Origin: a virus
Virus record (IMG/VR): IMGVR_UViG_3300037041_000665
Coordinates: 1 to 26,582 of that record
DNA length: 26,582 nucleotides
Strand: one strand, 5' to 3'
Shown here: positions 3,281-23,951 of the stretch, in pieces
Numbering within the stretch: the first letter of the stretch is position 1
How the letters are laid out: each line of letters opens with the position of its first letter
Translations under genes and position numbers: made by a program
The notes under the pieces: generated by a model
Seen by the model: the letters and a program-made list of their open reading frames with translations, nothing else
What the model was told of the DNA's origin: nothing
Databases searched by the model: none

Positions 3281-5988
3281 TACCAGCTTCTCCTTCTCAT
3301 AACGTATTCAGATGTGCTTCGTGAATTTATAGCCTTAGAGAACTCATCTACGTTTGCTATATTTATTTTTTTATTGCCTTTAACGGCTTGTATAAGTTCT
3401 GCGGTCTGAAAAGCAAGCTCTAAGCTTGTTTTGTCAGATATTGATTTTTTAGGCTCGTCCATAGAGCTTTTGTAGGCTGGTATTATGTATTTCTCAGCCA
3501 TCAAGCTAGGAAGTCTATCCTCTCTTATTGCCTCAAGAACATCTCTGTGCTTTCTTGTTTCTTGTGCGGTCATAACGGACTCGCCCTTAGAAAGTCTTGC
3601 AACAATGCTATCAGAAGTTCCCGTTCCAGGGCCTTGAAGGTCAATAACACCATCTTTAAAGCCTGGAGACTGAGCTTCAATAATAGAAAGCTGCGTTGCA
3701 GTTGTAGCTATTGCAAGAGGGATTAATATCGGAGCAACCGCAGCAAGGGCAGGGTTTCCTAAAATTGATATAATCGCATTCGCTCCTGACATAATAGCCC
3801 TTCCTATCTGATAGCTTTTTTCTGCTTGAAATGCCTCTCTTTTAAGTTTAGTTTTTTGGGTTTCATATTCTCTTTCCGATACAAGCCCTTTGTTGAATCT
3901 TTCTTCCAAATTCTGCAATTCAGCCTTTGCGGCATCTGCCTCAAGCTGTAATCTTAAAGAAAACAACTCCTCAAATGCGCCAGTTACTGCCATCACTTCT
4001 CTCATCTGATCACGAGTAGATTTAATGTCTATTTTACTACCCTTATCAGCAGCCCTTTGCTTAATATCATTTATTGATTTATATTTAGCCTCTTCTAATT
4101 GAATAATTAATTCAGCATTACCCTCAGCTTCTTTTATAAGGTCATTATAATAATCAATGGTTTTTTCAATCTCTAATTGCATAGGGTCCGAAATCGTACC
4201 ATATAGCTGGTCTCTAAATGTTTTTCTTAAATCATTCGCAAACTTTTCTCCTGATTTTACAGCAACCTGATATTGTAAAAAAGTTGTGTCATTGAATTTT
4301 TTTGTTAACTCCTCTGCTTCACGATACGCTTGCTCCATGATTGCGATTCGCTCTTTTGCTGTTAGCTTTTCGTTTTCAGCTCTTAATTGAGCCTCTGCAA
4401 CAAGCATCACTTGTCTAATCGCCAATTCTTCCTTACTGCCCTTTACAGCTTCTGCTAATCGTATTTTTTGAATAGCTATAAAATCTCTCAGTCCTTGATT
4501 CTCTATTTTTTCTAATTTAGTCGCCCCATCTTCTCTTGCTTGATCAAGAAGCGCATACTGTTTCATTGCGCCTTGAAGTACGCTTATTGTATTTCCTGCT
4601 TGTTGCTTCCGTTCTTTATTTAAATCTAAAGTCTTTTTCACTTCATCTCTTTGAGATATAGCATACCGCAACTGTTCCTTTTGTTCTTCAGTTATGCGCT
4701 TTAATGGGTTTCTTTGCTTAATGAGTACATCTATAAGAGACTGTTTTGATTTTAAGTTTTCCTCTTCTTTTTTAATAATTTCGTCTGCTTGTTTTATTAT
4801 TTCTCTATTAGCCTCAATTGTGCTTATCGCCCTATTCATTTCTGCTTTTCTCTGAGATTCGTTAAATTTTTCATAAGCGGAACTCATGGACACCAAGGCC
4901 TCTTCTTCTGCACGAGCAGTAGATACGCTAAGGTTAGCTCTTTGTCTTTGTCTATCTAAAGCCTCCTTAAATACCTTCTCAATACCCATTACGGCCTTAG
5001 ACATTTCTTCTTCACTCATGGAAGAAAGTCTAGGAGCGGAAGTTATTATCATAAATCTTTCGAGCCTAGAAAGGCTATCGTCAGTTAGGGCAATGTTTAT
5101 TGTATCTAAAAGGCCGCCAACAGATTTAGTTGCATTCTTAAATGCTTCTGTATCACCCACAGCAAGCTTAAATTGAAGCCAGGCACTTGTTACTCTATTA
5201 ACAGCAGCGTCCAATGAATTAGCCTTTCCTGCCAACGCTGGCGCAAAAGTTTCTTCAATAACCTTAGCGAATTCAGGAAGGATTTCTCTAGAAATAATCT
5301 TTCCCTCTTCCTGCATCTTCATGAACTGCCTATTGGTAATTTCTTGTTGCGGATGCAATCTATTATAGGCTTTAACCATTAACTCGTTCGCACCAGGCAA
5401 GGCTTCTCCCAACTGCCTTCTTAATTCTTCCGCAGCAACAACGCCTTTGGACATCATCTGTTGCAAAGCGTAAAACGCCCTTTGTGTTTGTAAGGAAGAT
5501 GCACCAGCGGCACGAAGTCCTGAAGCAACAGATACGAAAATTCTTTCAGCTTGTTGAACTGCCATACCTGCCTGAGTGGCTGCAATACCAAAATCCGCAA
5601 AGCCGCTAAGAGTTGTTTCTAAATCTAAGCCAAGCTTACGGGCGGTAGTTGCCATTCTTAAAAATGCCTCACCGCCCTTATCAGCAGATCCGGTTAGGAA
5701 GCTCAATCTGTTTTGAAGAAGCTCCATCCTTCTTTCAGCATCAAAAACAGATTTGGAAAACTCTATAACCTTTTGAACAGAAAAAGCAGCAGCTATTGCG
5801 CCTCCAAGTTTTTGTAGATTGTTATTAAGAAAACCAACTTCATCTGAAGACTTTTTAGCAGCATTAGACATATCGTCTCCTGCCTTCTTGGCAGTAGAAC
5901 TGAGCTGTTCTTGCTTTTGAATTATCTGGTCAAGCTTAGAATTTAGCAGAGCAATGTCTGCGTTGTACACAATAGTAACATTAGCCAT
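3280..5988 (-). CDS. Tape measure protein
   Basis: A 902-residue protein that sets tail length and is threaded through the tail tube. The first 60 residues are heptad-rich (coiled coil), followed by a typical tape-measure N-terminal domain including the stretch GVVAAEELRRQLGEALPGA near residue 190, which is characteristic of the family. Long Lys/Glu/Gln-rich helical regions fill the middle (about 350-700). A hydrophobic, Ala/Ile/Leu-rich segment near 740-780 could insert in the host membrane during DNA entry. It lies right after the chaperone pair, whose second frame it overlaps by 8 bases, the order expected in siphoviruses. At roughly 0.15 nm per residue, a tail near 130 nm would be expected; that number is an inference from length only. 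Confidence 0.95.
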   Translation of the reverse strand: MANVTIVYNADIALLNSKLDQIIQKQEQLSSTAKKAGDDMSNAAKKSSDEVGFLNNNLQKLGGAIAAAFSVQKVIEFSKSVFDAERRMELLQNRLSFLTGSADKGGEAFLRMATTARKLGLDLETTLSGFADFGIAATQAGMAVQQAERIFVSVASGLRAAGASSLQTQRAFYALQQMMSKGVVAAEELRRQLGEALPGANELMVKAYNRLHPQQEITNRQFMKMQEEGKIISREILPEFAKVIEETFAPALAGKANSLDAAVNRVTSAWLQFKLAVGDTEAFKNATKSVGGLLDTINIALTDDSLSRLERFMIITSAPRLSSMSEEEMSKAVMGIEKVFKEALDRQRQRANLSVSTARAEEEALVSMSSAYEKFNESQRKAEMNRAISTIEANREIIKQADEIIKKEEENLKSKQSLIDVLIKQRNPLKRITEEQKEQLRYAISQRDEVKKTLDLNKERKQQAGNTISVLQGAMKQYALLDQAREDGATKLEKIENQGLRDFIAIQKIRLAEAVKGSKEELAIRQVMLVAEAQLRAENEKLTAKERIAIMEQAYREAEELTKKFNDTTFLQYQVAVKSGEKFANDLRKTFRDQLYGTISDPMQLEIEKTIDYYNDLIKEAEGNAELIIQLEEAKYKSINDIKQRAADKGSKIDIKSTRDQMREVMAVTGAFEELFSLRLQLEADAAKAELQNLEERFNKGLVSEREYETQKTKLKREAFQAEKSYQIGRAIMSGANAIISILGNPALAAVAPILIPLAIATTATQLSIIEAQSPGFKDGVIDLQGPGTGTSDSIVARLSKGESVMTAQETRKHRDVLEAIREDRLPSLMAEKYIIPAYKSSMDEPKKSISDKTSLELAFQTAELIQAVKGNKKINIANVDEFSKAINSRSTSEYVMRRRSW

Positions 5989-7393: not shown

Positions 7394-8734
7394 TTAACGA
7401 GGTAAAGGTAAAGTTTTATATCCACTTCTTTTCAAATGAATCAAATACCAATCGTTCAAAAAGGTATTAATCATATATCTGCAAGAGTCACCGTGATCCG
7501 CTAACTGGCTGATAATCTGTCGGTTACGTTTTATAATGTTGCCAGCAGCATCGCATCTAAGCTGCTTAAAGTCCCTAGACATATTCGGGCATTTCTTAGG
7601 ATTCACCTTGAAGTCGGGGTGGTTTCTAAGGACATAGTTACATTGCGCCCTGCTGTTTTCGTGCTTAGGGTTAGGCTGTATCCGTATCTGCTTAGTGCTA
7701 AGGTTAAGCCCTCGTGCAAGCTGCTCGTAGTAGTTGGCATTGTCCCTCTGAGATAAGTCTCCTCTTTTGCCCATGGCATCACCAGTAATAAGGCACATAG
7801 GAAGATATGGCTCATACCTTTCCTTAATCACATCTATCATCTTCGGGATGCTTCCATCCACTACGTTAAACTCATCTACTATGTGGAAATGTTCTCCTTG
7901 GTCATCTTTCCACTTCTGCGCTACTATTCCAGCAAAAGGCTGCAAGTTAAAATCAAGCGATATAAGCAACGGAATATTCGGGTTGAAGTGTATGGACTGG
8001 TCTTCGTGAGTTAGTGCGTCATAAGCCATGAAAAACGGATTGTCGGGCTTCTCTTGAATCTCCCAGTCTCCTTCCACGAATCGTAGGTATTCGTATTCGG
8101 GCATATTCGCCTTTAGAGACTGAAGGTAGTCGGCAGGGATGTAAGGGTTGTCTGTAATCTTCGAAGGGATGTACGCCCAGGTTTCGGGCAATGCCTTCTT
8201 CTGCCATCTATCGTAGACCTCTTCCTTTACCCAGTTGTTAGCAGGGTTACAAGTGGCAAGTACTACGATAGGTGGTCTGCCAATGGAGTTGTTCCATGAT
8301 CCAGCACGTTCGAGCATTTTGTACAACGTCTGCTCTTGGCACTCGTTAATCTCGTCAATGCCTCCTCCATTTATTTCGAGTCCCTTGAAGCGGTCCAAGT
8401 CCTTGTCCGTTTCGTAGTTTTCGCCCATGAAGATAATCTCGCTGCCATTAGTGAAAGTAACCGTCTGCGCCTTTTTGTCCCAAGAGGAAATATACTTAGC
8501 CAATCCTTCATTCAGAATGGAGTTAAAAGTTACTAAGGTAGTTCTTTCGAGCGTAGGCATATTCGCACGAACAATCACCCACCTGCTCTTCGGAAACTTG
8601 GAGCATAGGGATATGAAGGTTAGAAGAAGCCAGTAAGTTTTACCGCCTCGGATAGCTCCGCCAAACAAGATGAACTGCTTCTCTCCGGACAGCGCAAGCC
8701 GATAGGCCTCCGTTTGTCTTTTAGTTAATTTCAT
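7394..8734 (-). CDS. terL: Terminase large subunit (packaging ATPase-nuclease)
   Basis: A 446-residue motor protein that pumps DNA into the prohead and cuts the concatemer. The N-terminal ATPase carries Walker A GGAIRGGKT (25-33), a Walker B-like GGGIDEIN (123-130) and the coupling motif VVLATCNPANN (157-167). The C-terminal RNase H-like nuclease shows its acidic residues in LISLDFNLQ (D261), CLITGDAMGKRGD (D319) and ADHGDS (D413, D416). Length is normal for the family. Its ATG overlaps the end of terS by 14 bases, as is usual for the pair. No portal or capsid gene follows; the next recognisable module is tail, which is unusual and means head genes lie outside this window. Confidence 0.96.
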   Translation of the reverse strand: MKLTKRQTEAYRLALSGEKQFILFGGAIRGGKTYWLLLTFISLCSKFPKSRWVIVRANMPTLERTTLVTFNSILNEGLAKYISSWDKKAQTVTFTNGSEIIFMGENYETDKDLDRFKGLEINGGGIDEINECQEQTLYKMLERAGSWNNSIGRPPIVVLATCNPANNWVKEEVYDRWQKKALPETWAYIPSKITDNPYIPADYLQSLKANMPEYEYLRFVEGDWEIQEKPDNPFFMAYDALTHEDQSIHFNPNIPLLISLDFNLQPFAGIVAQKWKDDQGEHFHIVDEFNVVDGSIPKMIDVIKERYEPYLPMCLITGDAMGKRGDLSQRDNANYYEQLARGLNLSTKQIRIQPNPKHENSRAQCNYVLRNHPDFKVNPKKCPNMSRDFKQLRCDAAGNIIKRNRQIISQLADHGDSCRYMINTFLNDWYLIHLKRSGYKTLPLPR

Positions 8735-9152
8735 CTTCTTCTCGTAAGTCTTCTTCTATCTCTTCGGAGTCATCAATGTCAACCACATGGGGCATCGAAT
8801 CACCTGATATAGTTGCTCTGTCATTTCCGTCAGTAAGTTCAAGCACGAATGGCTTGTCGTTGTTCTCCTGCACTGCATTCTGTGGCTTACCATAGATGTA
8901 GGCAAGAACAAGCTCTATGGCTCTCATATTGCCACGGATACCCTCAGAGACTAATCTTGCAATCAGTCCTTCCATGCGAGTGACTCCGTTTATGCTTTTG
9001 TTGAGTTCTATCTCAAGCATATTCTTTAAGTCCTTCTTCTTAGCTTCCCTTAGCTTTTTGACAGCTACTATCCTTGGGTCATCGGGACCTGAGATAGGGA
9101 TGAGGTTTGCTCGGTGGTCGTGCTTGTTTTTGCTTGGCTTTTCTTCGGGCAT
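8721..9152 (-). CDS. terS: Terminase small subunit
   Basis: A 143-residue protein that would recognise the packaging site and regulate the large subunit. The basic N-terminus (EKPSKNKHDHRANL) and helical centre are followed by RGNMRAIELVLAYIYGKP (about 79-96), a pattern seen in small terminases of the kind that lie before terL in Bacteroidota phages. The C-terminus is very acidic and overlaps terL by 14 bases. It is the first gene of the late block. The ATG at 9152 is only 4 bases after a TAAATTTG promoter box, and the next in-frame Met is too far in to be a sensible start, so the message may be leaderless. Divergence between small terminases is high, so position carries much of the call. Confidence 0.88.
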   Translation of the reverse strand: MPEEKPSKNKHDHRANLIPISGPDDPRIVAVKKLREAKKKDLKNMLEIELNKSINGVTRMEGLIARLVSEGIRGNMRAIELVLAYIYGKPQNAVQENNDKPFVLELTDGNDRATISGDSMPHVVDIDDSEEIEEDLREEDEIN

Positions 9153-9532: not shown

Positions 9533-9585
9533 AGGCTACTACGTTTTTTGTTTAACGTCAGGGGTCGCTGACCTGAGTGCAGTTG

Positions 9586-9656
9586 AGGCTGGAAACGGAT
9601 TCGAACCGATTTAAGCTGATTTGCAGTCAGTCACCTGGCCATTCGGACATCCAGCC
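9586..9656 (-). tRNA. tRNA-Cys (GCA)
   Basis: A 71-base cloverleaf on the minus strand: acceptor GGCTGGA/TCCAGCC (7 bp) with discriminator T, anticodon loop CTGCAAA giving anticodon GCA, and T-loop GGTTCGAATCC. The anticodon stem has an A-C and the T-stem a T-T mismatch, so it is slightly degenerate. CCA is not encoded. A TAACTTTG box (9668-9661, minus strand) ends four bases before the tRNA 5' end and could start the RNA almost at its mature end, though no -33 TTG was found. Phage tRNAs usually compensate for codon-use differences with the host or replace tRNAs cut by defence nucleases. Confidence 0.9.
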
Positions 9657-10064: not shown

Positions 10065-10967
10065 TTATAAATCTCTTGTGTCAAAATTAATCTCTAGTTG
10101 AGTTTCTGTCTTTTCGACTAAATCATTCGTTCCGCAAAATCCATTACACTCAAATAGTGGCTTTACTTCTTGCTCTTTCATATCGCTAATGCATTTTAAA
10201 TCAGGATATTCAGGATGCTTTTTTAAGAAAATAAACTGCCTCCATTTAACGCCAGTTTCTTCAACTGTTTTTTTGGCATCGTTACTTTGATCTTTTAACA
10301 TCGTTACTGGCTCTCCACGCAAAGCAGTTAGCTTGTGTTCCATTTCAGCCATGTTTTCAAACTTATCAGGAAAGTCTTGTTTCATTTTCTGCCAATATCC
10401 TACTCCTCCCTGGACGCATCCAGTTTTAAAACAATTGTTGTTTCTAAAGCCGAATTTGTACATCCTTGGGACTTCAATCCCTGCGTCTTGAACAATTTGC
10501 AAACAATCATCTTTATCATAGCCCATCATTAAAAGCGGATAAATCGGTTTTGCTTTTTGGTGGTTAAGCTTTAATGCATTTGCTCTATTGAATTCTTTTT
10601 TGTCAAATTCAAATCCAAAAACCTGATAGTCGAATTCATTTGAATCCTGCCACTTTTCACGAACTCTTCTTTTTAGTTGAGTTGAACAAATTGCGCCAGT
10701 AGCTACGTTTAGTGACTTATGCTTTTCCCAAACGTCTTGTATGCTTTCATAATCTTTGCCGATTTCAGTAATTACTTCAATTTTCTGTTTATACCATTTT
10801 TCACAATCCTTTTTGAATCTATAGGTATCTTCATCTTCATTTTGAGTGTCAATCATAATTACTCGGCAATTCTTCTTCCCGAATAAATCCAGAGAAATCT
10901 TACAAGCCACGGCAGATGTAATACCTCCACTCCACCAGCATATTATTTTTTTAGTATTAGAATTCAT
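10065..10967 (-). CDS. PP-loop ATPase, PAPS-reductase/adenine nucleotide alpha-hydrolase family
   Basis: A 300-residue enzyme. The N-terminus IICWWSGGITSAVA holds the PP-loop SGGITS (13-18) that binds the ATP or adenylyl phosphates. Further on are a conserved aspartate strand (VIMIDTQNEDED), a central ICSTQLKRR Cys-basic motif near residue 93, NCFKTGCVQGG, and a C-terminal CNGFCG. Family members reduce PAPS/APS or activate substrates by adenylation, including sulfur transfer to tRNA or DNA (DndC-like). Such genes are common in phages and their target is mostly unknown. The three Cys groups could hold an iron-sulfur cluster or carry sulfur. It overlaps the upstream gene by 11 bases. Confident for the fold; the substrate is unknown. 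Confidence 0.88.
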   Translation of the reverse strand: MNSNTKKIICWWSGGITSAVACKISLDLFGKKNCRVIMIDTQNEDEDTYRFKKDCEKWYKQKIEVITEIGKDYESIQDVWEKHKSLNVATGAICSTQLKRRVREKWQDSNEFDYQVFGFEFDKKEFNRANALKLNHQKAKPIYPLLMMGYDKDDCLQIVQDAGIEVPRMYKFGFRNNNCFKTGCVQGGVGYWQKMKQDFPDKFENMAEMEHKLTALRGEPVTMLKDQSNDAKKTVEETGVKWRQFIFLKKHPEYPDLKCISDMKEQEVKPLFECNGFCGTNDLVEKTETQLEINFDTRDL

Positions 10968-13972: not shown

Positions 13973-14167
13973 TTATACGGTCCAATTTTTACAAGCTTTC
14001 CGGCTTGCATAAAACTTTTTAAAATTGCCGCTATATTTTAAGCTCAGATCGTTTATAGCCCGTTCAATAGCCCGCAAATATTCATAGTTACTAAAATAAC
14101 TAGACCGGTCTACCTGTTCAAAAGTTAATAATTTACCGTCAAATTTTGCATTTATAAAAGTTTTCAT
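13973..14167 (-). CDS. Small hypothetical protein
   Basis: A 64-residue protein, MKTFINAKFDGKLLTFEQVD..., with a basic C-terminal half (KKFYASRKACKNW). Leader ACTAAAAACGATATG matches the one before the next gene. The spacing to the neighbours (31 and 20 bases) is regular. Composition is like the other genes of the CCGG-rich operon. No domain recognised; a small DNA- or RNA-binding protein is possible from charge alone. Confidence 0.65.
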   Translation of the reverse strand: MKTFINAKFDGKLLTFEQVDRSSYFSNYEYLRAIERAINDLSLKYSGNFKKFYASRKACKNWTV

Positions 14168-14187
14168 ATCGTTTTTAGTTTATTGGT

Positions 14188-14361
14188 TTACTCGTTTATC
14201 AAAATTTTAGTGCTAACAAATTTAGCGCCGGTCCTTTGCATGTATAATATGTAGTTATTCATATGGTCCTCATCATTAAAAGGCTTTATGTACATTTTAT
14301 ACTTTCCATATCGATCGTAAAGTACAAAACTTGCAAGTATCAAATTTTCGGTTGGTTGCAT
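14188..14361 (-). CDS. Small hypothetical protein (57 residues)
   Basis: ATG 14361 to TAA at 14188. It begins MQPTENLILASFVLYDRYGK and continues KYKMYIKPFNDEDHMNNYIL, ending KILINE. The start lies 3 bases after the stop of the upstream gene, and the end is followed by the leader of the next, so it fills the gap exactly. Alternating hydrophobic and charged residues suggest a small beta-rich fold. No family recognised. Confidence 0.6.
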   Translation of the reverse strand: MQPTENLILASFVLYDRYGKYKMYIKPFNDEDHMNNYILYMQRTGAKFVSTKILINE

Positions 14362-14364
14362 GGC

Positions 14365-14634
14365 TTAAGAATTTAAAAGGTTGCTGTATTTATAGCCGGA
14401 TCTATAAACATTGCCGGCCCGGTCCTTTTTATAAATTGGTATAATTTTACCGGCTATTTCACCTGGGAGCCCGGATAAAGTAATTGTAACAAGCCCGCCG
14501 GCCTCGTTTAAAAATAGCCCGTTCAATTGTTTGAAATTTTGGATCTGAATATTCATAGCTACCTTTTTGTTAAATTGACTTTCTTTATTGATAGCCCGGT
14601 GAAATTTGAAATAATGATCAATTAAGTTTTTCAT
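14365..14634 (-). CDS. Small hypothetical protein (89 residues)
   Basis: Starts MKNLIDHYFKFHRAINKESQ; a later ATG (MNIQIQNFKQLNGLFL) at about residue 27 is an alternative start and would leave the better-looking domain (GLFLNEAGGLVTITLSGLPG; KIIPIYKKDRAGNVYR). The first start follows an A-rich leader (TTTTAAAAC), which I prefer. The second half looks like a compact beta domain (GLPGEIAGKIIPIYKKDRAG). CCGG-rich like its neighbours. No family recognised. Confidence 0.65.
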   Translation of the reverse strand: MKNLIDHYFKFHRAINKESQFNKKVAMNIQIQNFKQLNGLFLNEAGGLVTITLSGLPGEIAGKIIPIYKKDRAGNVYRSGYKYSNLLNS

Positions 14635-14645
14635 GTTTTAAAATT

Positions 14646-14819
14646 TTACTTTGTTAGTGTTTCAATTAAAAGGGCCGCCAAAAGTGGCAATACAAATAGG
14701 GCCGCGACCGTTCCCCAGTGCTCAATGATCAATAGAATTTTTTCCCTGTTCCCGTTTCTGTTTGTTTGTGTGTACAAATAGGCGGGCCCGTTTGTCTGTT
14801 TGTTTGTTTGTGGTTTCAT
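14646..14819 (-). CDS. Small single-pass membrane protein (57 residues)
   Basis: ATG 14819 to TAA 14646, first gene of the leftward operon, directly behind the promoter at 14845-14873 with a leader of about 20 bases (AACAAACAAACAGAAACGAT). A polar Asn/Thr/Gln-rich N-terminus (MKPQTNKQTNGPAYLYTQTN) precedes one hydrophobic helix (about 36-54, TVAALFVLPLLAALLIETL). Small membrane proteins made first in phage operons often act on host membranes or superinfection, but nothing specific can be said. Confidence 0.6.
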   Translation of the reverse strand: MKPQTNKQTNGPAYLYTQTNRNGNREKILLIIEHWGTVAALFVLPLLAALLIETLTK

Positions 14820-14844
14820 ATCGTTTCTGTTTGTTTGTTGGATG

Positions 14845-14873
14845 CAAAACTACAAACGTTTTTTGAATTGCAA
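14845..14873 (-). promoter_or_regulatory. Leftward early promoter (TTG-N18-TAGTTTTG)
   Basis: On the minus strand TTTTG ends at 14871, an 18-base spacer follows, then TAGTTTTG (14852-14845) and CATC. The extended TTTTGCATC is shared with the rightward promoter at 15207-15236 and with the small-RNA promoter at 16020. It drives the five-gene cassette ending at 13186. Confidence 0.7.
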
Positions 14874-14948
14874 AACTTTTTTTCAAAAACTTTTAAAAAT
14901 ATTTTCAAAAAGTAAAAATACAGATCTTTGCGTGCATGTATCCGGGAA

Positions 14949-14983
<35 letters not shown>

Positions 14984-15019
14984 CGCCCAGGCACACACGT
15001 ACACACGCACGTACATGCG

Positions 15020-15184
15020 TTGACGAACGGTTGACGATTGACGAGCGGTTGACGATTGACGACAGCTTGACGATTGACGACAGCTTGACGACAGCTTGAC
15101 GACAGCTTGACGACTGACGATACCTTGACGATAAAAAATTATTGACGATAACTTGATGATTGACAAGCACTTGACGAGTGACGA
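15020..15184 (+). repeat. TTGACGA heptamer array, 17 units (iteron-like)
   Basis: Exact TTGACGA begins at 15020, 15031, 15038, 15049, 15056, 15067, 15074, 15085, 15096, 15107, 15125, 15142 and 15171. One-base variants begin at 15114, 15153, 15160 and 15178. The steps are 11 or 7 bases (one is 17), because the heptamers are either abutted or separated by 4-base spacers (ACGG, CGGT-type or CAGC). Thus 18-bp super-units such as TTGACGATTGACGACAGC form. All copies point the same way, ending 13 bp before the inverted-repeat arm. Array of binding sites for a phage protein (origin iterons or operator) is the best reading. Confidence 0.9.
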
Positions 15185-15206
15185 AAAAAATATTTTAAAA
15201 AAAGTT

Positions 15207-15236
15207 TTGCAATTAGAATCAGGCTTTGTAGTATTG
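15207..15236 (+). promoter_or_regulatory. Rightward early promoter (TTG-N19-TAGTATTG)
   Basis: TTG at 15207-15209, 19-base spacer and TAGTATTG at 15229-15236 (one mismatch to TAnnTTTG), followed by CATC. The leader to ATG 15265 is about 22 bases (CAAACAACTAAACGAAACGA). It starts the right-hand early operon. Confidence 0.65.
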
Positions 15237-15264
15237 CATCGTCAAACAACTAAACGAAACGACA

Positions 15265-15501
15265 ATGAGCAAACCAACTCTAAAGGACATGATCGCTGCC
15301 TCAGATGGTAGGGTGATGTTAGCAAGCCTACCCAAGCGCTTGACGATTGACGAAATCAAAGCCATCATTAACTCTTTTGATTATGATGATGACCCCTACC
15401 AGGAATGCAAGCGCATCAAAGCAGAACTGAACGCCAATGGCTGGGACTGCTCCTATGGTCTTGACGGTATGATCCACAGCGTTAAACCCTTGACGATATG
15501 A
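15265..15501 (+). CDS. Small early protein, first gene of rightward operon
   Basis: A 78-residue protein, MSKPTLKDMIAASDGRVMLA, then KRLTIDEIKAIINSFDYDDD and a C-terminal half CKRIKAELNANGWDCSYGLD. It follows the rightward promoter by about 25 bases. Residues RLTIDE are encoded by GCGCTTGACGATTGACGA, an exact extra copy of the noncoding heptamer super-unit, and the gene ends with another TTGACGA, so the array motif continues inside coding sequence. ATGA overlap with the next gene. The first gene after an early promoter often encodes a host-takeover or regulatory protein; no family recognised. Confidence 0.75.
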   Translation: MSKPTLKDMIAASDGRVMLASLPKRLTIDEIKAIINSFDYDDDPYQECKRIKAELNANGWDCSYGLDGMIHSVKPLTI

Positions 15502-15662
15502 AATTACTTATCTTGACGATAGCCTTGAGCATTCACGGCATTTGGTTCACTGACGATTTAGAGCTGGTGACGAAAGTAGCTGGTCTTTGCTTCTTAATCG
15601 CCTTAGCAGCCTTTATAGCCTTCAAATCAGCCATCATTGATGACGAATCGGACTACAAATGA
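15498..15662 (+). CDS. Small single-pass membrane protein (54 residues)
   Basis: ATG 15498 overlaps the previous TGA (ATGA). The protein starts MKLLILTIALSIHGIWF, a short hydrophobic N-terminus, then TDDLELVTKVAGL and a second hydrophobic helix (CFLIALAAFIAF), ending acidic (KSAIIDDESDYK). It is either a signal-peptide-bearing or two-pass membrane protein. Three TGACGA motifs lie in the gene. Its TGA overlaps the ATG of the next frame. No family recognised. Confidence 0.6.
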   Translation: MKLLILTIALSIHGIWFTDDLELVTKVAGLCFLIALAAFIAFKSAIIDDESDYK

Positions 15663-16081
15663 TGACGATTGAACAGAGCTGTGCTTTTATGCTGCATATA
15701 CCTTACACAGCATTTAAGCCATTTAGAGACAATAACTCTGAAATGACTTCGACCCACTATATGGAACTTCCGACTGCGACCCCTTCTTATGTATTCGGCA
15801 CTGATGCCTGGGCGTTTTCGTTTACCTTAACCTATTCTCCTTTCGGATATGCAGCTCCTGTTGTCAAGCTAGACAGCGCAGGCATTGGTGGTGGTAAGGT
15901 ATCCATACTGAGCGATTGTTTTTATTTAATGCTTGTACAATCCGATACAACAAGCCACAAAAAAAGCCTGGTAGTCGGGTTACCAGGCTCTATATGCTTG
16001 CAATCGATGATTGTTGATGCAAATATAGTTGATGTCCCGACGACACACAACAAATATACAAATAATTTTAAACCCCTTTAA
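15659..16081 (+). CDS. Hypothetical protein, doubtful 3' half
   Basis: A 140-codon frame starting at ATGATG, overlapping the previous stop by 4 bases, which supports real translation. It reads MMTIEQSCAFMLHIPYTAF and has an aromatic/Gly-rich centre (FGTDAWAFSFTLTYSPFGYA). The last 40 codons run through a perfect minus-strand terminator hairpin and a strong minus-strand promoter, so this part may be fortuitously open. No protein family recognised. An alternative is that the region holds mainly an antisense small RNA. Confidence 0.45.
   Translation: MMTIEQSCAFMLHIPYTAFKPFRDNNSEMTSTHYMELPTATPSYVFGTDAWAFSFTLTYSPFGYAAPVVKLDSAGIGGGKVSILSDCFYLMLVQSDTTSHKKSLVVGLPGSICLQSMIVDANIVDVPTTHNKYTNNFKPL
15958..16013 (-). 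ncRNA. Putative small antisense RNA
   Basis: A minus-strand promoter (16020-16050) is followed after about 25 bases by a strong intrinsic terminator (15959-15989), so an RNA of about 55 nt is predicted, beginning near 16013 with CAACAATCATCGATTGC and ending in the T-run. It opposes the rightward early operon. It is too short for a useful peptide. It may act as an antisense regulator, or the promoter-terminator pair may be an insulator. Confidence 0.45.
15959..15989 (-). terminator. Strong minus-strand terminator
   Basis: On the minus strand AGCCTGGTA (15989-15981), a 7-base loop, TACCAGGCT (15973-15965), then six T. The 9-bp stem is perfect. Confidence 0.8.
16020..16050 (-). promoter_or_regulatory. 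Minus-strand promoter TTG-N20-TATATTTG
   Basis: TTG at 16050-16048, 20 bases, TATATTTG at 16027-16020, then CATCAACAA, which copies the TTTGCATC and AACAA downstream of the leftward early promoter. One of the best promoter matches in the window. Confidence 0.6.
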
Positions 16082-16085
16082 ACAA

Positions 16086-16361
16086 ATGAAAATGACAGTA
16101 ACCGGATCTTGGATGGTCCCGATGTGCGAAGAAGCCATTGACTATCTTAAATACCACAACCCTGAGTTGATGTGGATGCTTGACATCACCTATAAGCATC
16201 ACATTGACAAGCGCACTAAGAAGCTCTACACCCACATCGGCAAGCTTACTGAGGAGGTCCTCCCTTGGTGCTTTATTCCGCCCTTCGTTGAGGTGATGAC
16301 GATTGAGGATTTTATTGATAAAATCTACATTCCGCACACTTTTTCCCTTGATGTTTATTAA
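16086..16361 (+). CDS. Hypothetical protein (91 residues)
   Basis: ATG 16086 (MKMTVTGSWMVPMCEEAIDY) follows an A/T-rich leader; an in-frame ATG at 16092 begins MTVTGSW, matching the MTV start of the next gene. The frame is open to 16029, but that upstream part is the promoter region. The rest reads YLKYHNPELMWMLDITYKHH, then IGKLTEEVLPWCFIPPFVEV and MTIEDFIDKIY. It is Trp/Tyr-rich and probably soluble. TGACGA occurs once more (16297-16302) in MTIED. No family recognised. Confidence 0.7.
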   Translation: MKMTVTGSWMVPMCEEAIDYLKYHNPELMWMLDITYKHHIDKRTKKLYTHIGKLTEEVLPWCFIPPFVEVMTIEDFIDKIYIPHTFSLDVY

Positions 16362-16415
16362 CTTAGTTTTTGATTTTTACACCCGCATTACTTTTCACCT
16401 TTTAACAACCTAAAA

Positions 16416-16646
16416 ATGACAGTAAAAAACTACCTATTGCAACTCCCGACTGATGTGTCGGAAAAGGCAATAATCAACACCCAAATCGATGTGCTGGATC
16501 ACCCTTGTGATGGCATCTGCGATGCTCTCCTGATGGCGTTCTATTGGGACAAGACTCCCCAAGGTCATGACTACTGGGAAGCCATCTACAATGCCTATGA
16601 GGCAGACACCGATGCTGAGAAAATGTTTGACCCACGACTAAATTAA
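16416..16646 (+). CDS. Hypothetical protein (76 residues)
   Basis: Starts MTVKNYLLQLPTDVSEKAII, contains HPCDGICDALLMAFYWDKTP and ends with an acidic helix (YEADTDAEKMFD). The leader AACAACCTAAAAATG is typical for this genome. Soluble, acidic; a short Cys pair (CDGIC) is present. Unknown function. It precedes the HTH-like gene by 5 bases. Confidence 0.7.
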   Translation: MTVKNYLLQLPTDVSEKAIINTQIDVLDHPCDGICDALLMAFYWDKTPQGHDYWEAIYNAYEADTDAEKMFDPRLN

Positions 16647-16651
16647 TACTG

Positions 16652-17020
16652 ATGCCAAAAATGAGAGACATTCACGAACGCAAGCTGATTACTAAAAATT
16701 GGCCATTGCCGTTCGAAGCCATCCAGGAGATGAAGCAGTTCATCGTCTATGGTGATGTATCAGAAATCGCTAAGGAGCTGGATGTATCCATCTTCAAGAT
16801 ATGGGACTACCTGAACAGAGAGAGAAGCAAGTATGACCTAAAGGTGATGATTGCCATCTTAGAAAGAGCAGAAAGAAACCAAACGATTATGGATCCTAAG
16901 ACATTAAGCCGCAGATGGCGGTTCAGCTTGAGGATGTATATTAACAAGATTTACCGACACTATTCAACTAAAGAAAGCAAAGATGTACGAAATAGACTAC
17001 AAGAGGTTGAGGCAGTCTAG
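16652..17020 (+). CDS. Helix-turn-helix-like small protein
   Basis: A 122-residue basic protein. EMKQFIVYGDVSEIAKELDV then SIFKIWDYLNRER (about 26-58) has the spacing of a helix-turn-helix, with the Gly-Asp turn and a basic recognition-helix end. The remainder is basic (SRRWRFSLRMYINKIYRHYS). It could be a transcription regulator of the early operon or a small DNA-binding partner of the replication proteins downstream. ATG 16652 is used; MRD at 16661 is an alternative. The 3' end overlaps the next gene by 38 bases. Confidence 0.7.
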   Translation: MPKMRDIHERKLITKNWPLPFEAIQEMKQFIVYGDVSEIAKELDVSIFKIWDYLNRERSKYDLKVMIAILERAERNQTIMDPKTLSRRWRFSLRMYINKIYRHYSTKESKDVRNRLQEVEAV

Positions 17021-17168: not shown

Positions 17169-17753
17169 ATGAAAAACATCATCAAAGCCTTATATGAGGC
17201 AAAGAAAGAAATCGGCTCAATCAAGAAAGACCAAAAGAATCCTTTCTTTAAGAAGAACTATGCCGACATCAATTCCATCATCGACCAGGTCGAGCCTATC
17301 CTTGAGAAGCATGGCTTGCTCTTATTGCAGCCTATCACCGATGAGAAAGTCATCTCCATCATCTACCATGTAGAAAGCGGTGAGAGCCTTAGCAGCGAGA
17401 TGAAGCTGACTGGCAGCAACAATCCCCAAGCTGTCGGATCTGAGATAACTTATTTCCGCAGGTACACTTTGCAGAGCTGCTTGGCCTTGATGGCCTTCGA
17501 TGACGATGCCAATATGGCTTCGGGCAGAACTACTCCTCCAGCACAGCCATTGCCAGCACCACAGCAGAAGCCAGCGAGTGATGGTCAGGTGAAGATGGCT
17601 AAGGAACTATGGGAGCAAGGTAAAAACAAAGATGCTGGTGGATTGGTCCGCATAGCGATGAAGTACAAGTTTGACCAACTCAAGCGCATTGAGCATCTTG
17701 GTGCTACCGACATCAATCTCCTTATCGTAGACCTTCAAGCCTTCTTGAAATGA
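17169..17753 (+). CDS. erf: ERF-family single-strand annealing recombinase
   Basis: A 194-residue protein. The ERF core is visible in KNPFFKKNYADINSIIDQVE (23-42) and GSEITYFRRYTLQSCLAL (90-107), followed by FDDDANMA, a Pro/Gln-rich linker (PPAQPLPAPQQKPAS) and a C-terminal helical domain with DGQVKMAKELWEQGKNKDAG. ERF proteins anneal complementary single strands and help circularise or recombine phage DNA. Length is normal. It overlaps the next gene by 4 bases and opens the replication/recombination section of the early arm. The leader CTAACTAAAAATG is typical. Confidence 0.92.
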   Translation: MKNIIKALYEAKKEIGSIKKDQKNPFFKKNYADINSIIDQVEPILEKHGLLLLQPITDEKVISIIYHVESGESLSSEMKLTGSNNPQAVGSEITYFRRYTLQSCLALMAFDDDANMASGRTTPPAQPLPAPQQKPASDGQVKMAKELWEQGKNKDAGGLVRIAMKYKFDQLKRIEHLGATDINLLIVDLQAFLK

Positions 17754-18907
17754 AGACAATAAATCTTGTGTCGCAAATAATTAATGATAAATATACAGAG
17801 TATGTATATGATGCATTTGACATCCAAGATAAAGAGAAGACATCTATATCAATTCCTTACGACTTAGATAATCTTGTTGAATTTGATTGGAATATTGGAG
17901 TGATAGTGGGTGGTAGCGGAAGCGGAAAGACAAGCATTTTAAAAACGCTGGGGGATTTAAGATCTCCCAGCTTTAAAGAAGACAAGGCACTAATCAGCAA
18001 CTTTGATTGGCTTGAGCCTAAAGATGCTGCATTAATTTTAACATCTATCGGATTGTCATCTGTTCCAACTTGGCTTAGGCCATTTAGCAAGCTTAGTAAT
18101 GGAGAGCAGTATAGGGCATCTTTAGCATACCTTATATCCTCTTCAAAGGATGGTGAGGTTGTGTTAATAGATGAGTACACCTCAGTAGTAGATAGAGATG
18201 TGGCAAAAGCAATGAGCTATGCGCTTCAGAAATTTGTTCGTAGAGAGAATAAGAAAGTTATATTAGCATCTTGTCATTATGATATACTTGAGTGGCTCAT
18301 GCCTGATTGGACCTGCTCACCGCAAAAAGGAGGCGCACTTGAAAGAGGCGAATGGCTTCGGCAAGGTAGACCAGCCATCGAATTACAAGTTAGTAGAGTC
18401 AAACATAAGGCTTGGGACATCTTCAAGAATCATCATTATTTAAGCAATAAATTAAGCAAATCCTTTAGCCTATTGCTTTTTGAATGGAATAACAACCCAG
18501 TAGCCATATGCGTGTATGCAAGTATGCCAAGTGGAACATTGAAGAATGGTTATAGATTAAGCAGGACTGTTGTTTTGCCCGATTTTCAAGGTATAGGAAT
18601 TGGTAAAGGCATATCAAATTTTACGGCATCAATACTTAAAAATAATGGATACAGAGTTTTTACCAAGACCGTAAACCCTGCGCTTGGCATATATAGAGAC
18701 ATTGACTCTTTAAGCTGGAAGCCAACATCTAAAAACAGAAAAGAAAGGAAAGACAAAAACTTCAAGTGTTTCGAAACAAAAAAATGGAAGCCATTAATAA
18801 GATTGTCTTATTGCCATGAATATATAGGGGAGGCAATACATGGTTATGATAATTTGCTTATGCCAATAAATCATTATCGAACAAAAAATCAATTAACACT
18901 TTTTTAA
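17750..18907 (+). CDS. ABC-type ATPase fused to GNAT (Mom-like?) domain
   Basis: A 385-residue fusion without membrane segments. The N-terminal half is an ABC ATPase: Walker A GGSGSGKTS (54-62), signature LSNGEQ (115-120), Walker B VVLIDE (137-142), and His switch in SCHYD (H176). The C-terminal half is GNAT-like: KHKAWDIFKNHHYLSNKL (218-234), then the CoA-binding loop VVLPDFQGIGIGKG (274-287). The HHYL motif and the following pattern recall Mom-type GNAT proteins that modify adenine in phage DNA; that is from memory. The protein could couple ATP-driven DNA scanning to base modification against restriction. It overlaps ERF by 4 bases. Codon use (ATA, AGA, AAT-rich) is more AT-rich than in neighbouring genes, suggesting separate acquisition. 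Confidence 0.88.
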   Translation: MKTINLVSQIINDKYTEYVYDAFDIQDKEKTSISIPYDLDNLVEFDWNIGVIVGGSGSGKTSILKTLGDLRSPSFKEDKALISNFDWLEPKDAALILTSIGLSSVPTWLRPFSKLSNGEQYRASLAYLISSSKDGEVVLIDEYTSVVDRDVAKAMSYALQKFVRRENKKVILASCHYDILEWLMPDWTCSPQKGGALERGEWLRQGRPAIELQVSRVKHKAWDIFKNHHYLSNKLSKSFSLLLFEWNNNPVAICVYASMPSGTLKNGYRLSRTVVLPDFQGIGIGKGISNFTASILKNNGYRVFTKTVNPALGIYRDIDSLSWKPTSKNRKERKDKNFKCFETKKWKPLIRLSYCHEYIGEAIHGYDNLLMPINHYRTKNQLTLF

Positions 18908-19725: not shown

Positions 19726-19895
19726 CAGCAGAAATGAAAGCATTGTCGTTGTTGCACCGGCACAATGGCGATAAGAAGTCCGCAGAGCTTAATGCCTTAG
19801 AAATATTAGATGATGTCACTTGGAATGGTGACCAGGAGGAGATAGACTTTTGGGAGGCTGTATTGGATGAACTCGAACTGATGGAGGAAGAATGA
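19722..19895 (+). CDS. Small acidic protein (57 residues)
   Basis: ATG 19722 and TGA 19893-19895 make ATGA overlaps with both neighbours, which strongly supports coupled translation. It reads MTAEMKALSLLHRHNGDKKS, then AELNALEILDDVTWNGDQEE, and ends in an acidic helix (DELELMEEE). The acidic surface could mimic DNA or bind the basic loader next door. No family recognised. Confidence 0.65.
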   Translation: MTAEMKALSLLHRHNGDKKSAELNALEILDDVTWNGDQEEIDFWEAVLDELELMEEE

Positions 19896-20602
19896 GCGGA
19901 TGGATTAAGATAGAGCGGTCCCTACAAGATCATTGGATATGGTCAGATGCTGTTAAACTGAAGTGTTGGGTGGGTATCCTGCTCAACGCTTCACACAGCA
20001 ATCAGAAGGTGCTTATAGGCTCTGAAGTGATAGAATGCCGAAGAGGAGAGATAGTCGGTAGCCTAAGAGACATCGCATCTACCCTAGGAGTCTCTAAAGA
20101 CTACCTCAGGCAGTTTATATCGATTCTTCAAAAAGATTTCATGGTAAATTCTGAAAGTTCGTCAAAGTACACACGGATAACTATTTGTAACTATGATAGT
20201 TATCAAGGGTCGCTACACGATGAGAAGACGATTCAAAGACAAACTGAAGACAGTAAAAAGAATGTAAAGAATGAAAAGAAAAGTCTAATTGATAAAAAAG
20301 CAAAAGATTTAGAACCTACAAGCATTGTGGATAAGTTTAACATATTTTGGGAAGTCTACAATAAAAAGGAAAGCAGAGCAACAGCACTCAAGTCATGGGA
20401 TAAGTTATCTCCCGAAGAGATGGATAAGGTCTTAGAGACAGTCAGCAGCTATGTCCTTTGGAAGAGTGACCCGAACTACCGAAAGCTTCCAGCAACTTAT
20501 TTAAATCAAAAGTGCTTCAATGATGAAATTCCATCTATTTTTGCAACCCCAATAAAGAAAGAAACAACAACTTACCAGCCACCAGCCAATGCAATATTCT
20601 GA
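19892..20602 (+). CDS. Replication initiator / helicase-loader-like protein
   Basis: A 236-residue protein directly before dnaB, overlapping it by 14 bases. The N-terminal half (SGWIKIERSLQDHWIWSDAV ... EIVGSLRDIASTLGVSKDYL) is a winged-helix DNA-binding domain of the DnaD/replication-initiator kind common in phages. A Lys-rich linker (about 115-145) follows, then a DnaD-like helical C-terminal part (FNIFWEVYNKKESRATALKS; YVLWKSDPNYRKLPATYLNQ). Such proteins bind the origin and load DnaB. The pairing with dnaB supports this strongly. The C-terminus is Pro/Thr-rich. Confidence 0.85.
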   Translation: MSGWIKIERSLQDHWIWSDAVKLKCWVGILLNASHSNQKVLIGSEVIECRRGEIVGSLRDIASTLGVSKDYLRQFISILQKDFMVNSESSSKYTRITICNYDSYQGSLHDEKTIQRQTEDSKKNVKNEKKSLIDKKAKDLEPTSIVDKFNIFWEVYNKKESRATALKSWDKLSPEEMDKVLETVSSYVLWKSDPNYRKLPATYLNQKCFNDEIPSIFATPIKKETTTYQPPANAIF

Positions 20603-21938
20603 AGCAGTCCAAGAAAAAGTCCTCGCAGTACTCATGTCCCCCGATATGAATACGGGCAATGTAATTACATCTCTAAGAGCGGAGTACTTCAGCGGTGAGC
20701 GCAGAAATATCTTCGCTGCTTGCCAGGTTCTCCATCGGGAGTCTAAGCCAGTAGATGTACTCACCATCTTTAAAAAGATGAAGGACTTAGGATTTGCTTC
20801 TAATGCCTCTAAGCTGGCAGAGATGAGTGCTGGCGGTATCTTCGAGCTTCAGCACGTTAAACACTACATAGCCGAACTGCATGATATGTACAAGGCTAAT
20901 AAGCTGGAAGAGATAAAGAGGGAGCTTATGGCAGACTTCGACATCCCGAAGGCTTTCGAGCAGTTCAATGTCCTTAATGCGGATGACATCGATGCTACCA
21001 GCACAGATGTTCATACAGCTGCTCTAAGCTTCGTTAAGAAGATTGCGAGGATAAAGGATGGCAAGGAGAAAGTTAAGTCCACTAAGACGCACCTAAGAGC
21101 CTTAGACAGCATCGTGAATGGCTTCCAACCTGGAGACTTCATAATCCTTGGAGGCAGACCTGCCCATGGCAAAACAACGCTCGCACTTCAGATGGCATAC
21201 AACCAGGCGCAGAAGGATACAGCAGTTGGATTCATCACTATGGAGATGTCTACCGAGCAGCTTACCTCAAGGCTTCTAAGCAACTCTACGGAGATAGATG
21301 GCAAGAAGTTCATCAACATCGTAGATAACCTCAGCGTTCAGGAGATAAACCAAGTGGCTGCCCATGTAGACAAGCTTAAAAACACCAAGCTGTACATTAG
21401 TGATCAACCCGATGCCGACCCGGTCAAGATAGAATCAGAGATAGCAAGGATGGTCCGCCAGCATGGAGTGGAAGGCGTGTATATCGACTACCTCCAGCTT
21501 GTCTCTCCGATGAGGGAGGATAAGATGAAGAACAAGGTAGAGCAAATCACTAATATCTCGAAGCAGTTTAAGGCTATGTGTAAGCGTCAAGGTGTTTGGA
21601 TATGTCTTATATCATCCTTGAGTCGGAAAGTCGAAGAGAGAGAAGATAAGAGACCATTTATGGCAGACCTTAGAGAGAGTGGGCAGCTGGAATATGATGC
21701 AGACAAGGTGCTGTTCTGTTATCGTCCAGCAGCGTACATGGAAGAGTCTGCTCCAGCCTTCGAGGATGCTAAGGATGTGATGGAGATATTGGTCCGCAAG
21801 AATAGAAACGGAGAGCTTGGAGTAGCTGTTGCCTCTACCGACTTAAAGTACACCAAGGTGATGGACTACGCTCCTAAGTTCAAACCCCTTCCCATTCCTG
21901 AGAAAACAACAATCGTAAGGCAATGGAATAATGAATAA
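20589..21938 (+). CDS. dnaB: Replicative DNA helicase (DnaB family)
   Basis: A 449-residue hexameric helicase. The N-terminal helical domain (residues 5-120) includes KVLAVLMSPDM and RRNIFAACQVLHRESKPVDV. The RecA-like domain has Walker A GGRPAHGKTT (188-197), FITMEMSTEQL (215-225), Walker B GVYIDYLQL (296-304), ISSLSRKVEER (341-351) and the arginine-finger region DLRESGQLEYDADKVLFCYR (360-379). ISSLSR replaces the usual LSQLSR. It overlaps the upstream loader-like gene by 14 bases. A normal-length, complete enzyme, expected to unwind the phage fork. Confidence 0.96.
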   Translation: MQYSEAVQEKVLAVLMSPDMNTGNVITSLRAEYFSGERRNIFAACQVLHRESKPVDVLTIFKKMKDLGFASNASKLAEMSAGGIFELQHVKHYIAELHDMYKANKLEEIKRELMADFDIPKAFEQFNVLNADDIDATSTDVHTAALSFVKKIARIKDGKEKVKSTKTHLRALDSIVNGFQPGDFIILGGRPAHGKTTLALQMAYNQAQKDTAVGFITMEMSTEQLTSRLLSNSTEIDGKKFINIVDNLSVQEINQVAAHVDKLKNTKLYISDQPDADPVKIESEIARMVRQHGVEGVYIDYLQLVSPMREDKMKNKVEQITNISKQFKAMCKRQGVWICLISSLSRKVEEREDKRPFMADLRESGQLEYDADKVLFCYRPAAYMEESAPAFEDAKDVMEILVRKNRNGELGVAVASTDLKYTKVMDYAPKFKPLPIPEKTTIVRQWNNE

Positions 21939-23251: not shown

Positions 23252-23488
23252 ATGAAAACACCAATTGAATTAGCAGCGGAAGTGATTTCCGAAATGCCGA
23301 CAGGAGTACTGTCAGCACAGAGCCTCAAGGAGGTAATTGTATCTTTCTTGCTAGAGAACATGGTCATCAGCGAAAGAGAGCATCTTGCCCTAGCATTCAA
23401 GGATGGTCAGTCAAGACCCCTTCAGATGCACACAGAATGGTTTAAAAAGAAGTACGGACAAACAGAAAGGACTGGAGAAAGTGAGTGA
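23252..23488 (+). CDS. Hypothetical protein (78 residues)
   Basis: Begins MKTPIELAAEVISEMPTGVL, then SAQSLKEVIVSFLLENMVIS and a basic C-terminus (WFKKKYGQTERTGESE). Two gene starts nearby share MKTP. A helical-looking domain; no function recognised. It overlaps the DnaA-like gene by 8 bases if that gene starts at GTG 23481. Confidence 0.7.
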   Translation: MKTPIELAAEVISEMPTGVLSAQSLKEVIVSFLLENMVISEREHLALAFKDGQSRPLQMHTEWFKKKYGQTERTGESE

Positions 23489-23951
23489 GTTGAAGCAAGA
23501 CACCAGTAAGGTAATCTCAGATGTAATAGAAATCGTAACTAACAATACCGGTATAGACCATGCTGATATGATTAGCAAGAAGCGCAGAAGAGAGATAGTG
23601 GGAGCAAGACAGTGCGCTATATGGCTCATCCGCAAGTACGCACCAAGCGTAACACTTAGCCAGCTAGGCAAGATATTCGGGGACAGACATCACTCTACTA
23701 TCATCCACGCAATAGAGGTGGTGGAAGATCAAATATTCTGCAACAACAAAGACTTCACCTGGGTGCGGAAAGTTGTTACAAACAAAGCGGATGACATAGC
23801 CTTAGATGCAGACCCCATCGTAAACGAATTGTCGAAGGCTGCAAGGGCTTTAAAGCTTGGATATGTAGTGGAGTCCCACGCAAGGATAGAGAGGGCCATA
23901 GAGATGAGAAGGCAGATGCTTGCTGAGTCTGAAACCCTAACCAACGAATGA
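23481..23951 (+). CDS. DnaA domain IV-containing phage protein
   Basis: About 156 residues from the GTG at 23481; a longer frame from ATG 23403 overlaps the previous gene by 86 bases, and its extra residues look like a shadow of that gene. SDVIEIVTNNTG begins the domain; RREIVGARQCAIWLIRKYAP, then VTLSQLGKIFGDRHHSTIIH follow the helix order of DnaA domain IV, including the DRHHST signature that reads the DnaA box. There is no AAA+ ATPase, so it is DNA-binding only: an origin-binding, replication-modulating or decoy protein. The C-terminal part (AARALKLGYVVESHARIERA) is helical. The DnaA box at 12165 is a possible target. Confidence 0.85.
   Translation: MSELKQDTSKVISDVIEIVTNNTGIDHADMISKKRRREIVGARQCAIWLIRKYAPSVTLSQLGKIFGDRHHSTIIHAIEVVEDQIFCNNKDFTWVRKVVTNKADDIALDADPIVNELSKAARALKLGYVVESHARIERAIEMRRQMLAESETLTNE

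Follow-up and report, generated by a model that had tools for sequence, protein, structure and literature searches.

A directional TTGACGA heptamer array and its candidate binding protein in a group of uncultured phages

What is the function of a dense array of a single seven-base word, with all copies pointing the same way, in front of the early genes of a phage? The question is raised by a 26.6-kb IMG/VR virus record that was analysed over its whole length of 26,582 nucleotides (the window), and in which the word TTGACGA is repeated on the + strand between positions 15020 and 15184. We examined how the array is built and where else it occurs, which promoters and genes surround it, and which protein could read it, and we weighed the explanations that its features allow.

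The array and its distribution

A sequence-only reading of this DNA had described 17 same-direction heptamers, 13 of them exact, with starts 7 or 11 bases apart. The counts, the direction and the rhythm hold, with the exception of one step. Exact copies start at positions 15020, 15031, 15038, 15049, 15056, 15067, 15074, 15085, 15096, 15107, 15125, 15142 and 15171 (n = 13), and copies with one mismatch at 15114, 15153, 15160 and 15178 (total n = 17). The resulting series of steps is 11, 7, 11, 7, 11, 7, 11, 11, 11, 7, 11, 17, 11, 7, 11 and 7, the 17-base step between 15125 and 15142 being the only one other than 7 or 11. Dinucleotide-shuffled versions of the array contained on average 1.1 and at most 6 copies in 2000 trials, and in 20 shuffled windows no non-simple heptamer exceeded 4 copies per 165 bp. 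Over the whole window TTGACGA occurs 20 times, whereas whole-window shuffles contain 2.55 copies on average and 10 at most; just 3 of the exact copies are on the opposite strand. No publication on the TTGACGA motif was found in the literature searched, where the text matches were primer-type noise. A reading of the array region as an RNA element was dropped because Rfam gave no credible match.

No DNA match to the array region was found among 50,697 deposited phage records, nor was a close cultured relative. A scan of IMG/VR for the pattern TTGACGA-N4-TTGACGATTGACGA retrieved 27 further viral contigs, which carry 8–20 heptamers each, with 7 and 11 as the commonest steps; in these contigs the array is mostly followed by an A/T-rich block and then by another 1–3 heptamers. 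In all, the array with its heptamer and both steps is found in dozens of uncultured phage contigs, L009–L035 among them. It is shared by deep relatives that were fetched through their DnaB, independently of the array (L116, L121, L125, L134 and L168), and whose DnaB is about 40–45% identical to that of other array phages. Judged where the contig reaches that far, the array is kept at the same position in these deep relatives, which bears out the expectation of the sequence-only reading that relatives should carry it at the same place. Because the word also runs on through the first early genes to the gene of a small DNA-binding protein and is avoided in this orientation in the rest of the genome (see below), we regard it as very likely to be a phage-specific control signal of a previously undescribed kind.

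In the closest array-bearing relative (G001/L008) the distal early genes are 98% identical and the array is rearranged. Comparison of G000 with G001 showed that the DNA to the left of the array (window about 14000–15020) is unrelated and that the 3′ part of the array is common to both, which places the array at a recombination border. The heptamer copies turn over fast, while the word itself stays fixed. In L017 the main array is preceded, at a distance of about 1.5 kb, by a second, smaller heptamer array (4001–4079), behind which lies a GGGCCC terminator-like hairpin. Directly 5′ of the array in the window lies a (CA)n tract (14950–15015), and CA-rich tracts also precede the arrays of L010, L121 and L125.

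Promoters, heptamer zone and the candidate binding protein

The array is flanked by the two arms of an inverted repeat (14866–14894 and 15186–15214), which had been noted before and are real, with 90% complementarity. The most fitting interpretation is that they represent two divergent promoters which resemble each other in sequence. The consensus for Bacteroidota promoters is TTTG / TAnnTTTG (PMC7366714). On the + strand, a promoter-like site of this type with one mismatch to the consensus is located at 15206–15236 (TTTG-N19-TAGTATTG), and a divergent leftward site at 14845–14874 on the − strand (TTTG-N18-TAGTTTTG); the latter is one of three pattern matches in the window, where 0.6 are expected. 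A scan for sigma-70 promoters was uninformative. Among the relatives, 28 of 34 loci have a TAnnTTTG box 2–73 bp 3′ of the last heptamer, with clusters at 2–3 and 24–29 bp. In the 2–3 bp class the heptamers sit where the −33 element is expected, which favours a regulatory role. Directly 3′ of the array is an A/T-rich block (15180–15209, +; 96% A/T in 25 bp), similar in most relatives, which is a candidate unwinding element or promoter upstream element. The earlier proposal of an array that binds protein in one direction and is placed between divergent promoters is well supported; the sequence-only interpretation as a whole is supported in part. The distant terminase matches are mostly to Bacteroidota phages (Flavobacterium 11b, Cellulophaga phi10:1, Polaribacter, Bacteroides) and, together with the TTTG / TAnnTTTG promoter-like sites, they suggest that the host is likely a member of the Bacteroidota.

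The heptamers continue beyond the array. From its end to the gene of a helix-turn-helix (HTH) protein extends a zone of short early ORFs on the + strand (15185–16651; ORFs 15265–15501, 15498–15662, 15659–16081, 16032–16361 and 16416–16646), which contains 4 TTGACGA and 10 TGACGA on that strand. The four exact copies, missed by the sequence-only reading, start at 15340, 15347, 15490 and 15513 and lie inside the first two ORFs: an abutting pair (15340–15353) within ORF 15265–15501, a single copy at the end of the same ORF (15490–15496), and another one within ORF 15498–15662 (15513–15519). When 37 oriented loci were pooled, the density of array-strand heptamers fell from 4.4 per kb in the first kilobase to 3.3 and 0.5 per kb in the next two, with about 0.02 per kb elsewhere. 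In the 26 loci with an HTH gene, the stretch from the array to this gene measures 0.9–2.9 kb and is filled with same-strand heptamers that end at or inside the HTH gene; no heptamer follows it in 23 of the 26, and L070, L073 and L134 have 1–2. The other genes of the zone vary in number and kind between lineages.

The zone heptamers use two reading frames, with 33 and 17 cases, and encode different peptides in them, while the third frame would give a TGA stop. Synonymous-codon shuffling of the zone genes predicts 22 sense copies, and 70 are found. The use of both stop-free frames, the difference of the peptides and the excess over expectation show that the selection on the zone heptamers acts at the level of DNA.

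The last gene of the zone (16652–17020, +) encodes a protein of 122 aa. In its AlphaFold model the helical core, which includes an HTH, is predicted with confidence (pLDDT about 90), and Foldseek matched the model to Xre/Fis-type HTH proteins, weakly and with no E-value below 0.001. Sequence searches in Pfam, PHROG and PDB returned nothing significant, no homologue was found in deposited cultured phages, and Foldseek with a 225-aa version of the protein was uninformative. An alignment-based scan of IMG/VR found 4 loci and was too insensitive. Every array locus whose sequence covers this region carries a homologue, and the array-less relatives L137, L138 and L140 have none, although these controls, the array-less and HTH-less contigs with enough upstream sequence, represent essentially one lineage. 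Of the binders named by the sequence-only reading, the product of 16652–17020 tracks the array perfectly, whereas that of 23481–23951, a protein with only the DNA-binding domain IV of DnaA (DnaA-IV), also occurs in related phages without the array.

We hypothesize, with a probability of about one half, that TTGACGA is an asymmetric site recognized by a DNA-binding protein of the phage. The likeliest candidate is the HTH protein, which would control the early operon, and the array is possibly also a replication origin. The array copies, immediately 5′ of the first early promoter, would be bound head to tail, and the protein, by filling the array and the site or sites beside the −7 box, would control this promoter and probably the divergent one too. 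Further co-directional copies extend along the operon as far as the gene of the protein itself; the protein would thereby feed back on its own operon, and early expression would be self-limiting. That the array may double as a start of replication is plausible because of the A/T-rich block and the nearby replication genes. In favour of this model are the conservation of the heptamer and of the 7/11 steps, the co-occurrence with the HTH gene, the end of the zone at this gene, the position of the −7 box, the DNA-level selection in the zone genes and the avoidance of the array-strand word outside the zone (see below). Against it, the recognition region of the HTH protein shows little conservation between lineages in spite of the invariant heptamer, and the fold matches are weak. 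The recognition motif of the DnaA-IV protein, (D/H)HS(T/V), is in contrast conserved across the array phages, and it is mainly for this reason that we hold the identity of the binder less sure.

Strand-specific avoidance and alternative explanations

Iteron origins of plasmids and lambdoid phages consist of same-direction short repeats beside an A/T-rich stretch, and the early region that contains them also encodes a helicase and its loader. An origin of this type, at which the array would bind an initiator, the A/T-rich block would unwind, and the DnaA-IV protein and/or the HTH protein would recruit the helicase loader and DnaB, is a possible, if tentative, alternative. The locus resembles such origins in its same-direction repeats with an A/T-rich block adjoining in most relatives, and in the genes for a DnaD-like helicase loader (19892–20602, +) and the DnaB replicative helicase (20589–21938, +) in its early region. 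The phage also encodes the DnaA-IV protein (23481–23951, +; Bac_DnaA_C, PF08299, 5e-21), which lies about 7–11 kb downstream in relatives, is an alternative binder of the heptamer, and has a recognition motif as conserved as the heptamer itself. On the other hand, the initiator is here a candidate only, the units are far more numerous and shorter than iterons, and many of the sites are spread through coding genes outside the array. The 7-bp step, moreover, is no whole helical turn. It is the commonest step across relatives (149 of about 340), ahead of the 11-bp step (99), and the earlier argument that proteins on copies 11 bases apart would line up on one helical face fails for this reason. 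GC skew was uninformative, with no clear switch at the array in G014, G015 and G003.

DnaA boxes are 9-mers with the consensus TTATNCACA. The phage carries a DnaA-IV protein and the 11-bp step would accommodate a 9-mer plus 2 bp, but the heptamer differs from this consensus and abutting 7-bp sites leave too little room for 9-mer boxes. The consensus is found twice in the window (1.17 expected) and never in the array, and the DnaA-box reading was dropped. The DnaA-IV gene is present in the array-less L137, L138 and L140, so that DnaA-IV as the sole partner of the array was dropped as well; by distribution it is a weaker partner than the HTH protein. Plain origin and DnaA-box readings, like the stoperator reading considered below, fit only partly.

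A further property of the genomes is a strong avoidance of the array-strand word on both arms, which spares the reverse orientation. Outside the zone, array-strand heptamers are absent from the genes of both arms in 17 partly redundant array phages, where codon shuffling predicts 12.5 in the left-arm genes and 9.3 in the right-arm genes, while opposite-strand copies number 108 against 71 expected. In an unbiased scan of 8 less redundant genomes for strand-asymmetric avoidance, TGACG ranked first of 1024 words, TGACGA first of 4096 and TGACGAT first of 16384, with TTGACGA seventh. For TGACGA in the left arm the array strand has 0 observed and 20.5 expected, the other strand 85 and 64.6; for TTGACG in the right arms of a larger, partly overlapping set, the values are 6 and 25.0 versus 25 and 20.8. 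The nominal binomial values of 7e-11 (left, TGACGA) and 6e-5 (right, TTGACG) are optimistic because the genomes share ancestry. In the matching right-arm regions of array-less relatives there is no such avoidance. The avoidance follows the absolute strand of the genome and not the direction of transcription, and since both arms avoid the same strand, the reader of the word is not simply transcription. On double-stranded DNA, a protein site can have a preferred strand only if it is read by something directional. The pattern is not predicted by a plain operator/repressor model, and this counts against the model that we favour. In coding sequence outside the zone, all array phages also strongly avoid GATC, CGTCG/CGACG, CAATTG and CTGCAG-type words symmetrically, as expected of restriction pressure; the avoidance of TGACGA, unlike that of GATC, CGTCG and CAATTG, is one-sided.

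Cluster A mycobacteriophages such as L5 and TipsytheTRex have stoperators and operators, short asymmetric sites in many copies, whose orientation is tied to transcription; the L5 sites act orientation-dependently and are bound by an HTH monomer (PMC9283540). By analogy, bound co-oriented sites in the early operon could halt RNA polymerase, but we consider such a control of elongation unlikely. It would agree with the location of asymmetric sites both at a promoter and in transcribed DNA, with their orientation along the early genes throughout the zone, with the HTH protein encoded there as candidate binder, and with the avoidance of only the co-directional orientation by right-arm genes. In the left arm, however, co-directional TGACGA is not avoided (85 observed, 65 expected) and the head-on orientation is (0 observed, 20 expected), so that the genome-wide spread of sites following transcription on both arms, as in L5, is not seen. 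The site has 7 bp and forms a dense head-to-tail array, its copies are limited to one operon and lie inside genes rather than between them, the HTH protein is unrelated by any family search, and no lysogeny gene was identified.

The heptamer could instead be a polar orientation signal on the scale of the genome, harmful in one direction outside the 1–3 kb zone on both arms and read by a directional machine through a new pair of phage protein and site. We consider this an improbable explanation; the machine may be a unidirectional replication fork that ends at the zone, or the packaging motor. In its specific form, with the protein-site complex acting on a one-way fork for which the zone is a polar terminus beside the origin, or on packaging from a pac-like array, it appears more doubtful still. 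It accounts for the avoidance of array-strand words on both arms whatever the direction of transcription, with the reverse strand unaffected. Near-full-length contigs start at differing map points, so the genome map is likely circular or permuted, and the large terminase subunit and a candidate small subunit (8721–9152, −; Pfam DUF5681, 5e-6, just under the cut-off; adjoining the large-subunit gene) co-occur with the array. A pac site, however, lies in or beside terS and binds TerS, whereas the candidate terS is about 3–6 kb away from the array; the direction of replication or packaging is here presumed, and polar barriers leave the end of the zone at the HTH gene unexplained.

Finally, a functionless heptanucleotide repeat grown by slippage is very improbable, even though pure 7-bp TTGACGA tandems occur in unrelated contigs and copy number differs between close relatives, because the motif is invariant across deep lineages, stands at a fixed place before a promoter with mixed 7/11 steps in a conserved context, has dispersed copies in two reading frames that end at one gene, and is avoided strand-specifically elsewhere. 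The pure tandems, of 3–8 copies, were seen in the viral contigs L142, L144, L145, L148, L149, L150, L154, L155, L158, L159 and L160 and in L036, an Anaerolineae MAG. Their contexts are apparently unrelated, HTH and DnaA-IV genes were not found in the stretches examined, and they look like a widespread heptanucleotide satellite that uses the same word. Treating all TTGACGA tandems as one thing was dropped, as L142, L144, L148–L150, L154, L155 and L158–L160 are pure satellites with neither gene in the examined stretches.

Relation to known site families and accompanying genes

A further system for comparison is that of the omega (ParB) heptads in parS of plasmid pSM19035, which are non-palindromic, contiguous 7-bp units (WATCACW) in both orientations that overlap promoters (PMC9499535). 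The abutting copies of our array are likewise contiguous non-palindromic 7-bp units, and the omega system indicates that a small DNA-binding protein can physically be accommodated at 7-bp steps. TTGACGA is not WATCACW, however, and the array differs from the omega sites in its single orientation, its 11-bp steps and its dispersed copies. A ribbon-helix-helix ParB or a ParA partner gave no Pfam or PHROG match among the window proteins scanned, which covered part of the ORFs. Because the array fails defining features of the stoperators, of the omega heptads, of the DnaA boxes and of iterons with helical phasing, we file it outside these families, as a type of its own among clustered directional binding sites.

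What the locus offers is a cis-acting signal that is conserved in an environmental phage group, for which the collection searched contained no close cultured relatives, together with the protein that is its candidate partner; this protein-site pair can be tested directly. If the strand-specific avoidance is confirmed, sequence alone would suffice to tell from the motif which way replication or packaging, as a process of the whole genome, proceeds. It would also be an unusual case of a control word embedded in protein-coding genes that moulds them.

Upstream of DnaB, L118, L130, L136 and L189 are densely packed with CGCTGCC/TGCCGCT repeats, which have the look of a long, repetitive coding sequence rich in alanine. 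These repeats were considered as an alternative array in L136, L118 and L130 and dropped as alanine-type coding repeats. In the window, 17750–18907 encodes a protein of 385 aa, which matches an ABC-type ATPase partially at its N-terminus and, over its full length, PHROG 11143, whose function is unassigned. The late strand carries a tRNA-Cys gene (9585–9656) and a gene for a protein with a PAPS-reductase domain (10065–10967).
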